In this document: one piece after another, positions 18,804 through 20,841 of the stretch
How the letters are laid out: each line of letters begins with the position of its first letter
How positions within the stretch are numbered: position 1 is the first letter of the stretch
Origin: Rhodoferax sp.
Lineage (GTDB): Bacteria; Pseudomonadota; Gammaproteobacteria; Burkholderiales; Burkholderiaceae_C
Reading direction: 5' to 3'
Length of the DNA stretch: 42,017 nt
NCBI GenBank assembly: GCA_013791765.1
Contig: VMTC01000042.1
Coordinates: 1 to 42,017 of the forward strand
Notes under the pieces: model-generated
Databases searched by the model: none
The model's input: the letters and a program-made list of their open reading frames with translations, nothing else
Told to the model about the DNA's origin: nothing
Made by a program: the position numbers and the translations under genes

Positions 18804-19394
18804 ATGCACCGCACTGTTTTTTCAACTCCCGTCATCAACACCCTGCTGCGCACTTTTTCGGTTCTTTTTCTACGCCTGACCGGCTGGAAAGTGCAGGGCA
18901 GCTTGCCAGTCGGCGTACAAAAAAGTGTGCTGATTGCCGCCCCGCACACCAGCAACTGGGATTTGCCCTACACCCTGATGGTGGCTTTCGCCTTGCGGCT
19001 CAATATCTACTGGATGGGCAAGGAGCAGTTGTTCAAGCCGCCGTTTCGCGGCCTGATGATGTGGTTGGGGGGCATCCCGGTGGCGCGCGAGAAGTCCAGC
19101 AACGTGGTGGCGGACTCCGTCCTTGCGATCGGGCAGGTCGATGGGCCGGTACAACTGATCGTGCCCCCTGAGGGCACGCGCGGCAAGACCCGCTACTGGA
19201 AAACCGGCTTTTATTACATTGCTTTGGGCGCTCAGGTGCCGATTGTGATGGCCTACATGGACTACCAAAAAAAGATCAGTGGCCTCGGTCCGGTGTTCGC
19301 GCCCACAGGCGATCTTGAGGCAGACATGGCGGCGATCAAAGCCTTTTATGCGCCGTTCAAGGGTAAAAATGCCGATCAATTTCATGCGGAATGA
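18804..19394 (+). CDS. Lysophospholipid acyltransferase family protein (PlsC-like)
   Basis: 196 residues. The H-x4-D catalytic motif is in APHTSNWDLP (about 47-56), the second motif is GGIPVARE (about 89-96), and the third is VPPEGTRGK (about 119-127). This is the PlsC fold, short version without a strong N-terminal anchor, seen in proteins that acylate 1-acylglycerol phosphate or related lipids. The ATG at 18804 has no strong ribosome site. The 224 bases upstream contain TTGACA at 18688 but no convincing -10 box. The specific substrate is unknown. Confidence 0.88.
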   Translation: MHRTVFSTPVINTLLRTFSVLFLRLTGWKVQGSLPVGVQKSVLIAAPHTSNWDLPYTLMVAFALRLNIYWMGKEQLFKPPFRGLMMWLGGIPVAREKSSNVVADSVLAIGQVDGPVQLIVPPEGTRGKTRYWKTGFYYIALGAQVPIVMAYMDYQKKISGLGPVFAPTGDLEADMAAIKAFYAPFKGKNADQFHAE

Positions 19395-19444: not shown

Positions 19445-19474
19445 AAAAAAGCCGCAGTGTGATCACACTGCGGC
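19445..19474 (-). terminator. Terminator of the intron-containing tRNA gene
   Basis: GCCGCAGTGTGA and TCACACTGCGGC form a perfect 24-base palindrome at 19451-19474, and six T follow on the minus strand (complement of 19445-19450). It begins nine bases past the CCA end of the tRNA. Confidence 0.85.
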
Positions 19475-19483
19475 CAGCTTGTT

Positions 19484-19816
19484 TGGTGGGCCTCCCGTGA
19501 GTCGAACACGGCACCAACGGATTATGCTTACCAACTACGACTTTCGTCGCCCCTTTCGGGTTTGTGGTCTGGACTGTCTCTTGTCTTTACGACCTGCCCG
19601 TACAGTCTCTACACGGTCTCCTCCAAAGAAGAGCTTCGCTCGGGATTGCCACGGCAATTTCTCACCAGAGGTTTCCCCGACTTTGAGCAGTTCTACCAAG
19701 GCGCAGAGTCAACTTGCGCCAGGGCAACCCAATTTGTTGATTCCACTCTCAGTGACTGAGGCTAAGGAAAAAACCACTTTAAGTCCGCTGCTCTAACCAA
19801 CATGAGCTAGAGGCCC
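19484..19816 (-). tRNA. tRNA with CAU anticodon (Ile2 or elongator Met), interrupted by a group I intron
   Basis: Exon 1 (19782-19816) begins GGGCCTCTAGCTCATG and ends GCAGCGGACT. Exon 2 (19484-19526) begins CATAATCCGTTGG and ends GGGAGGCCCACCA. Joined, they give a full cloverleaf: acceptor GGGCCTC/GAGGCCC, D stem GCTC/GAGC, anticodon stem GCGGA/TCCGT, T stem CCGTG/CACGG with TTCGACT loop, and encoded CCA. The loop becomes CT-CAT-AA, so the anticodon is CAU, with the intron between positions 33 and 34. CAU serves elongator Met or, after lysidine modification, the Ile AUA codon; I cannot decide. It is not tRNA-Leu because there is no long variable arm. The tRNA lies 20 bases after hrcA. Confidence 0.9.
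19527..19781 (-). ncRNA. Group I self-splicing intron (255 nt) in the CAU tRNA
   Basis: Core elements are present in order: a P3/P4-type block TCGGGGAAACC, a Q-like block AATCCCGAGCGAAG, R element GTGTAGAGACTGTACGG (complement of 19598-19614) and S element AGAGACAGTCC (complement of 19571-19581). R and S can pair as P7. A GAAA-loop hairpin GACGAAAGTC follows, as in P9. The 5' site fits P1: exon GGACU pairs with GGUUU inside the intron through the required U-G at the splice site. The last intron base is G. The layout resembles the known Azoarcus tRNA-Ile ribozyme, but that intron follows the anticodon. No homing endonuclease is encoded. Confidence 0.88.
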
Positions 19817-19836: not shown

Positions 19837-20841
19837 CTACTTGTGGTAGCTCAGCGCGTTACTCACCAATTTTGATGTGATGTCCACAATCTGGATCATC
19901 CGGTCGTAGGCCATGCGCGTGGGGCCGATCACGCCCAGCGTGCCCACCACCTGGCCATCCACCTCGTACGGCGCACTGACGATGGACAGGTCTTCAAACG
20001 GGATCACCTGGCTTTCACCGCCGATGAAAATACGCACCCCTTCGGCCTGACCGGCAATATCAAGCAGGCGCATGAGCTGCGCTTTTTGCTCAAACAGATC
20101 AAAAGCGCGGCGCAGGTGGCCCATGTCATTGGAAAAATCAGTGACGGCCAGCAAGTTGCGTTCACCTGAAATAACCACTTCGTCCTGCGTTTCTGACAGG
20201 GCCTCAGAGCTGACCGTCACGGCAGCCTGCATCAGGCTGGCGATTTCCGAGCGCAGGGACTCCACTTCGCTTTTCAGGCGCTCGCGCACCTGTTCGATGG
20301 CCAGACCGACGTAATGGCTGTTGAGGTAGTTCGCCGCCTCCACCAATTGGGGCTGCGAGTGATCCGTCTCGGTAAAAATAACCCGGTTTTGCACGTCACC
20401 CTCCGGGGAAACGATGATGACCAGCAAGCGCCGCTCCGACAAGCGCAGGAATTCAATATGGCGAAACACGGAGGAGCGCCGCGGTGCGATGACCACGCCG
20501 ACAAACTGGGACAGGCTTGACAGCAGGTTGGCCGCGTTGGAGATTACTTTTTGCGGCTGATCGGGTGCCAGGCTCTGGGTGGCGAACTGCTCCTGGCGCA
20601 CCGTCAGCATGGTGTCAACAAACAGGCGGTAACCGCGCGCCGTCGGGATGCGGCCAGCCGAGGTGTGCGGGCTCACAATCAAGCCTAAATCTTCCAGATC
20701 AGACATCACATTGCGGATGGTGGCGGGCGATAAGTCCAGCCCCGAGGCTTTCGAGAGCGTGCGCGAACCCACCGGTTGTCCATCGGCGATATAGCGCTCA
20801 ACCAGCGCTTTCAATAACAACTTGGCACGGTCATCGAGCAT
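19837..20841 (-). CDS. hrcA: Heat-inducible transcription repressor HrcA
   Basis: 334 residues. The N-terminal winged helix carries the family signature ([20 protein letters not shown], then [20 protein letters not shown] and [11 protein letters not shown]) at about 8-70. The rest is the GAF-like dimerisation domain with an insert, ending [20 protein letters not shown]. HrcA binds CIRCE operators (TTAGCACTC-N9-GAGTGCTAA) to repress groEL and dnaK type genes. No CIRCE element or chaperone gene occurs in this window. Its start is only 28 bases from that of nadK on the other strand, so the two promoters must overlap each other or the coding regions. Confidence 0.96.

Follow-up and report, generated by a model that had tools for sequence, protein, structure and literature searches.

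The window, that is the whole stretch of 42,017 nucleotides of Rhodoferax sp. DNA analysed here, carries on its minus strand (19816-19484) a split tRNA gene with a CAU anticodon, which is broken after U33 by an intron of 255 nt and sits between hrcA and an acyltransferase gene. The preliminary description of this tRNA gave no strand, and the minus strand was established here. The features of the locus are the following.

19837..20841, minus strand: hrcA, the upstream neighbour and marker of the orthologous locus (PF01628, E 1.4e-65; synteny)
19782..19816, minus strand: 5' exon of tRNA-Ile2(CAU) with U33 at its end, identical in genomes G044, G047 and G460
19782..19785, minus strand: 5' strand of P1, exon G30-A31-C32-U33, with U33.G as the predicted 5' splice-site wobble (RNAalifold; paired in 46/46 sequences preselected for the guide motif, window included)
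19527..19781, minus strand: group I intron of 255 nt with terminal G at 19527 (174.8 bits with R1, a covariance model built from 26 sequences of which the window is one)
19736..19774, minus strand: hairpin within the P1 loop, with a CCUUAG..GUGG element (covarying hairpin in RNAalifold)
19726..19730, minus strand: internal guide sequence GGGUU, of which GGUU is predicted to pair with the 5' exon (comparison across loci and RNAalifold)
19695..19725, minus strand: P2 stem-loop (RNAalifold)
19594..19690, minus strand: P3-P4-P5-P6-P7(5')-P3' core with R motif GUGUAGAGACUGUACGG (stretch matched by RF00028; core alignment)
19571..19607, minus strand: P7 (GACUG 19607-19603 with CAGUC 19576-19572), enclosing P3' and P8 (19594-19583); 5 pairs, 100% paired
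19538..19560, minus strand: P9 and a second P9 hairpin with a GAAA loop on each (core alignment, helices 9 and 10)
19484..19526, minus strand: 3' exon of tRNA-Ile2, with anticodon CAU (19526-19524), anticodon 3' stem, variable loop, T arm, acceptor 3' strand and encoded CCA
19450..19475, minus strand: intrinsic-terminator-like hairpin 3' of the tRNA, 11 pairs and a T run
18804..19394, plus strand: acyltransferase gene, downstream and convergent (PF01553, E 5.5e-12; downstream in G044 too)

When the exons were joined, ARAGORN folded them into a complete cloverleaf with the loop CU-CAU-AA and labelled it tRNA-Met(cat), a label in which the tool makes no Ile2 distinction. This agrees with the two halves, 255 nt apart, of the preliminary description, as do the terminal G and a 3' exon that holds all of the anticodon. 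Any shift of the junction would alter the product, because the first base of the intron is U and that of the 3' exon C, and the last base of the 5' exon is U and that of the intron G. The 3'-exon pattern CATAATCN(2-3)TTGGT had a single match in the genome, at the split gene. Intrinsic-terminator-like sites numbered 2 in the region against a shuffle average of 0.9, and a consensus scan found no promoter of the split tRNA gene.

A U-G P1 pair at the 5' splice site had been proposed. The U33.G pair exists, but the splice-site-adjacent GGUUUU pairing is not conserved, and the guide is GGGUU, 51 nt into the intron and behind a hairpin. A P1 of GGACU with GGUUU beside the splice site was dropped because the tract is changed in G047, which reads GUAGUUU there, and the pairing is absent in other families; the inward guide is conserved instead. 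Among 74 parsed loci (five from the genome search, window included, and 69 of the first 80 listed junction stretches, with the near-duplicates L073/L161 included), 67 had GGGTTGC, usually 42-60 nt from the intron start and in a few much deeper, and the other seven were Opitutia with a compact loop and GGGTC. The 5' exon was located in 101 of the 119 listed junction stretches, and every one of these scorable loci, from four phyla, had a guide: GGGTTGC anywhere in the intron in 90 and GGGTC at the intron start in 11. The 18 unscorable stretches comprised 12 with <300 bases upstream and 6 with more in which the rule used gave no 5' exon.

RNAalifold was run on 46 of 57 eligible 5' domains, eligible meaning a guide motif 38-60 nt in; the 11 omitted were mainly near-copies. 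In addition to the G30-A31-C32-U33 pairing with GGUU in all 46, it gave the first guide G with intron U+1 (a P1 extension), P2 and the covarying hairpin in the P1 loop, whose CCUUAG..GUGG element resembles a GAAA-tetraloop receptor and is a putative one. A switch from P1 extension to P10 is the usual exchange in group I splicing, and the first guide G may alternatively pair with exon C34 as P10; the base preceding it could pair with A35 in 54/67 loci. P1 shows almost no covariation because the exon is invariant, and its support comes from conservation and from comparison with introns of other specificity. Seven Opitutia introns (L085, L086, L102, L105, L111, L123, L126) share the site between U33 and C34 and have a compact P1 (GGGTC) without the P1 hairpin; they possibly arrived independently.

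For the ribozyme core, we aligned P3 to the terminal G in 26 rows, namely 23 U33 introns, window included, hand-picked from 66 with a located core, and 3 Leu introns. The structure of 38 pairs, P3/P7 pseudoknot included, was named by hand and drawn on one of the rows. It paired 99.3% of 988 cells and showed two-sided changes at 23/38 pairs in the 26 rows; drawing it on one row favours the fit somewhat, a bias that cannot account for the two-sided changes. None of 500 shuffles equalled it on any of five measures, and slid partners were 29-47% paired. Pair 7/109 (P3) and pair 102/144 (P7) each occur as four types, and 62/90 (P6) changes from C-G to G-C. The R and S core motifs of the preliminary description are matched by loose R-like and S-like motifs before the junction in 110 and 111 of the 119 listed stretches, where the terminal G is fixed by the search pattern itself. 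The P3-P9 core is conserved together with its P3/P7 pseudoknot, P1/IGS places a U.G wobble at the 5' splice site, and the last intron base is G; as aligned with 25 relatives, the core can hardly be other than that of a group I intron.

The tRNA is intact. All 17 acceptor, anticodon and T-stem pairs were standard in 71/71 readable joined exons of the 74 parsed loci, and the T stem carries many compensated changes. For the acceptor this count is biased, since acceptor pairing was one of the grounds for choosing 5' exons, and some of the anticodon stem was set in advance by the search pattern. Junction, cloverleaf and covarying core agree on a CAU tRNA that a group I intron splits between positions 33 and 34, its anatomy, splice-site signals and tRNA integrity being borne out by sequence and covariation.

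The genome of the window is a draft of 4.17 Mb in 136 contigs, for which the tool gives a completeness of 100%. RF00005 found 41 tRNAs in it, none with UAU and two with CAU, which from established knowledge of their sequences we take to be fMet (L018) and elongator Met (L014). The split gene encodes a CAU tRNA distinct from both, and the search for another CAU tRNA-Ile2 that the preliminary description had suggested found none in the assembly. TilS is present at 154.2 bits against a cut-off of 93.6, and another match elsewhere in the genome, at 70.9 bits, stays below threshold; the profile matched in 14/14 control genomes, above the cut-off in 10. The split gene is thus very probably the AUA-reading tRNA, a possibility raised in the preliminary description, and the only one in the assembly; since it is the sole Ile2 found and TilS is present, AUA decoding probably depends on splicing. 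The assembly being a draft of 136 contigs, a second Ile2 copy could be missing from it. ATA makes up 10/4671 codons in 12 ORFs of the window.

An exact pattern for intact Ile2, which misses more divergent intact copies, was found in 2 (G421, G183) of 22 U33-intron genomes (19 from the order survey and G044, G047 and G460) and in 5/5 control genomes. Matches elsewhere with one mismatch look like eMet (G070), tRNA-Lys(CUU) (G117, G395) and an intron junction (G395). G062 and G060 each have an eMet-type gene alongside an intact Ile2; the pattern for eMet is not universal, as it was not found in four (G056, G048, G052, G038) of 11 genomes examined.

The preliminary description had warned that gene finders can miss this tRNA, and they do. 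Without introns, ARAGORN found only a tRNA-Gln in the window, and with introns allowed it called the split gene tRNA-Leu(UAA). The Rfam group I model, proposed earlier as a check, did match (RF00028, 19690-19594, minus strand, 24.8 bits, E 2e-4 in a 421-base scan), but below its gathering score of 50. At that score it had no match in the whole window, and ten other loci with such introns (eight U33, one U36, one Leu) stayed below it too; the gathering score is a detection cut-off and not a defining trait of group I introns. The Rfam tRNA model at its curated score also left the split tRNA undetected. Default ARAGORN hence overlooks a tRNA expected to be essential, as do both Rfam models, group I and tRNA, when held to their curated scores, so that genomes can appear to lack AUA decoding.

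We searched 89 genomes of the same genus, and 13 had a match: a U33 intron in four (G000, G044, G047, G460), a U36 intron in five (G038, G035, G019, G041, G017), a Leu intron in two (G002, G472) and an intron of another or unclear type in G008 and G043. Within this one genus, three alleles stand beside hrcA, with a U33 intron (L043, L044, L279), with a U36 intron (L054, L057) or intact (L048, L049, L050; among the intact-allele loci, genomes G056 and G052 are incomplete), which makes the locus a natural experiment on how an intron is gained and lost and what it costs. In the four U33 copies of the genus, exons, guide, P3, P4, P7, P8 and P9 are identical, and the differences lie in the P1 loop, P2, P5 and P6 regions.

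The junction pattern occurred in at least 119 stretches in named genomes, those listed comprising 82 from Pseudomonadota, 15 from Planctomycetota, 15 from Verrucomicrobiota and 7 from Acidobacteriota. Among 399 genomes of the order, R1 matched 76 places in 65 genomes, which by host were Leu (27), Ile2-U33 (20, in 19 genomes), Ile2-U36 (12), Arg(CCU) (7), Ser(UGA) (2), Asn(GUU) (2) and partial or unassigned (6, of which two resemble another U36 type and one Asn). With up to 2 mismatches, the junction pattern was found in 12 of 397 genomes drawn from the phylum against 7 for a backward control; G000, G702 and G798 matched exactly and G490 with one mismatch, flanks having been read for the window only.

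In eight loci (L109, L129, L131, L155, L120, L139, L156, L157) the intron gene is preceded, about 140-230 nt upstream, by a truncated 5' half of an intronless tRNA-Ile2 that reaches to CTCATAA. This half looks like the scar of an integrated element; in L109 and L155 it adjoins an rpoD-like ORF (by eye). Integrase attachment was considered as its cause in these two loci and set aside, no integrase being obvious by eye there among the listed ORFs of at least 130 aa. Truncated copies of intron and tRNA 3' half lie beside ordinary genes in L138, from a Polynucleobacter MAG, and in L108, L115 and L135, which resemble it. Among the U33 introns of Acidobacteriota, L159 (1049 nt) holds an ORF (1492-2205) that matches LAGLIDADG_2 (E 1.1e-19), and L101 (5420-5821) and L152 (4554-4922) hold antisense ORFs, alike by eye, that matched only below cut-off, the former AI2M-like_HNH (16.9 of 23 bits) and the latter PLATZ. 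The window's intron is too short for a homing gene, so past homing spread and reverse splicing are both possible.

The search for phage carriers of the intron gave one weak match only, covering 34% of the intron: an unannotated stretch of Bacillus phage BSP7 (MH707430.1:46591-46671) with weak similarity to the intron core. On plasmids, 29 records matched, 17 in the intron core at 60-80% identity and 12 at 90% or more; the three of the latter among the 20 matches listed cover tRNA exons only. Two of the 17 plasmid cores were read, and neither is a U33 intron. Both are tRNA-Leu(UAA) genes with group I introns on predicted conjugative plasmids: L081 (2940-3230) on E. coli plasmid LR890263.1, between mph(A) and aac(3)-II-like genes, where default ARAGORN finds no tRNA, and L082 (2430-2720), unannotated, on Bradyrhizobium plasmid CP094621.1. 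Similar intron cores lie on other plasmids (among the matches listed, H6-H17).

Sorting the introns by host tRNA gave pairs of exon and guide, so that the insertion site moves with the guide. The exon CUU of Leu faces GAG in 23/24 printed introns and GGG in one (L223), three further Leu rows not having been located; CCU of Arg faces GGG (7/7), CAU of Ile2 U36 faces GUG (12/12, order survey) and ACU of Ile2 U33 faces GGU (19/19, L233 being cut by a contig end). By eye, tRNA-Ser(UGA) introns after U34 (CUU, intron, GAAA; L232 and L250, two genomes of the order) have guide GAG, and tRNA-Asn(GUU) introns after U35 (CUGU, intron, UAA; L270, L271, L278) have GCA. Two further tRNA-Ile2 introns after CAU (L273, L276) have a different core, with R motif GTGCAGAGACTAG, and are perhaps another intron class at the CAU site. 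Judged by the letters, the Leu guide GAGU is a partner for ACUU and GGGU for ACU one base earlier, its first G being left for C34. The table of CUU-GAG, CCU-GGG, CAU-GUG, ACU-GGU and UGU-GCA makes natural ribozyme retargeting testable; in the excerpts of PMC6274277, three of these pairs are among the CNU/GMG genotypes used in laboratory work on Azoarcus.

R1 aligned 100 chosen sources, and the second tree, without L289 and two Asn rows, had 97 rows and 164 columns, with long branches and many weak nodes. In it the U36 introns form one clade (100/99), the non-Opitutia U33 introns group with the stray Leu row L082 (98/97), the plasmid Leu intron L081 is sister to this group (94/89), and L223, a possible intermediate with its GGG guide in tRNA-Leu(UAA), falls just outside (98/89). 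L082 lies inside the U33 group in both trees, as do the two Asn rows in the first; two Opitutia rows stand with Leu introns in the free tree. In AU tests, 39 U33 rows as one clade fit better than the free tree (p-AU 0.56), and the values for Opitutia with the other U33 rows, U33 with U36, and Leu as single clades were 0.50, 0.36 and 0.37. The nearest relatives of the U33 introns thus appear to be tRNA-Leu(UAA) introns, and the tree suggests that the former are nested within the latter. Because the AU tests do not reject the joint-clade alternatives, descent from Leu introns is kept as the leading idea and not as a result.

The intron could be taken for an ordinary Azoarcus-type tRNA-Ile intron whose true splice sites lie after CAU (between 36 and 37), which we consider highly improbable. 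The preliminary description had noted a resemblance to the Azoarcus ribozyme, and this stands as far as the shared host tRNA and the p-AU of 0.36 for a joint clade go; kinship looks distant, the U36 introns forming their own clade in the free tree and the nearest rows being tRNA-Leu(UAA). Here CAU follows the terminal G in the 3' exon and is absent from the 5' exon, whereas the U36-intron genes of the genus read GGACTCAT, intron, AATCC; insertion after U36 with guide GUG, constant in the order survey, is not what is found, the guide here being GGGUU. Hardly credible at all is the call of ARAGORN's intron mode, a tRNA-Leu(UAA) with an intron, in spite of the Leu introns nearby in the tree: the variable loop is short, the tRNA body matches the intact tRNA-Ile2 at the same locus, an intact tRNA-Leu(UAA) lies elsewhere in the genome, no arrangement of U.G and terminal G yields such a product (by eye), and the insertion is not after U34 with guide GAG.

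That the gene is a decayed intron or pseudogene which has lost splicing would fit the low RF00028 score and the truncated relatives at other loci, but core and exons are invariant in four genus members while the periphery changes, and no other Ile2 gene was found in the window's genome, nor by pattern in 20/22 U33-intron genomes; we rate decay as very unlikely. The Azoarcus and Anabaena tRNA introns are self-splicing, and this intron is like them in its small complete core, GAAA loops and receptor-like element. That argues against splicing only with a protein helper, a reading which is improbable, if less so than the preceding ones; self-splicing here is predicted, and some group I introns need helpers according to the excerpts of PMC3984707.

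The explanation that fits best, and that we hold with high confidence, is that a group I intron in tRNA-Ile2 would splice out after U33 by means of its GGUU guide, giving the CU-CAU-AA loop for TilS and AUA decoding. Group I introns leave by two transesterifications, in which guanosine cuts at the 5' site and the exon end then attacks after the terminal G. In the transcript, the exons would fold into the anticodon stem, the guide 5'-GGUU-3' would hold exon GACU with the U33.G wobble, and guanosine would attack after U33; the freed U33 would then attack after the terminal G, assisted by a putative P10 in which C34 pairs with the first G of the guide. TilS would convert C34 of the joined loop into lysidine-34, and AUA could be decoded. 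Since C34 lies across the junction, TilS presumably acts after splicing in the cell. Since all of the anticodon lies in the 3' exon, TilS and MetRS should both find it unfinished until splicing has taken place, so the order of maturation is testable.

A wider proposal is tentative, and we regard it as possible but short of probable. Through changes in a guide of 3-4 nt, one small-ribozyme lineage may have been re-aimed within the anticodon loop, to insert after U33 in Ile2, U34 in Leu and Ser, U35 in Asn and U36 in Ile2 and Arg. A shift in the guide that amounts to little more than one A-to-G change may have turned a Leu(UAA) intron into the U33 form, which would then have spread over four phyla, so that AUA decoding would hang on a ribozyme and then TilS.

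Group I introns in tRNA-Ile2 have been found by hand in Acidovorax and Burkholderia (PMC8450103, the tRNAscan-SE 2.0 paper). They are alike in host tRNA, in being self-splicing group I introns and in being missed by a tRNA finder; the excerpts of that paper give no insertion position, guide or phylogeny, and some of these introns may be of the U33 class. The site between U33 and C34 is not mentioned in the excerpts of PMC3984707, PMC11835236 and PMC5733544, and no description was found in a literature search that left most subscription papers outside its scope, which makes this absence weak evidence. A group I intron in tRNA-Ile2 is therefore known, and its position between U33 and C34 is apparently undescribed, widespread and hidden.

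The intron of Azoarcus BH72 pre-tRNA-Ile(CAU), with a group I core in the same host tRNA, is inserted after U36, has the guide GUG and leaves CAU in the 5' exon, and U36 introns form a separate clade in the free tree; the window's intron lies after U33, with CAU in the 3' exon. tRNA-Arg(CCU) introns are known, e.g. from Agrobacterium, and the seven found here share the core type (R1 matches) and an anticodon-loop site, but lie after U36 with guide GGG against exon CCU, unlike the U33 site of the window. Introns of tRNA-Leu(UAA) are known from cyanobacteria, plastids and proteobacteria, proteobacterial ones having been found here. They are nearest in the core tree and similar in anticodon-stem context, GAG against GGG in the guide being the main change; they are inserted after U34 and carry the guide near the splice site without a large hairpin (24 printed), whereas in the window's intron the guide lies behind a hairpin.
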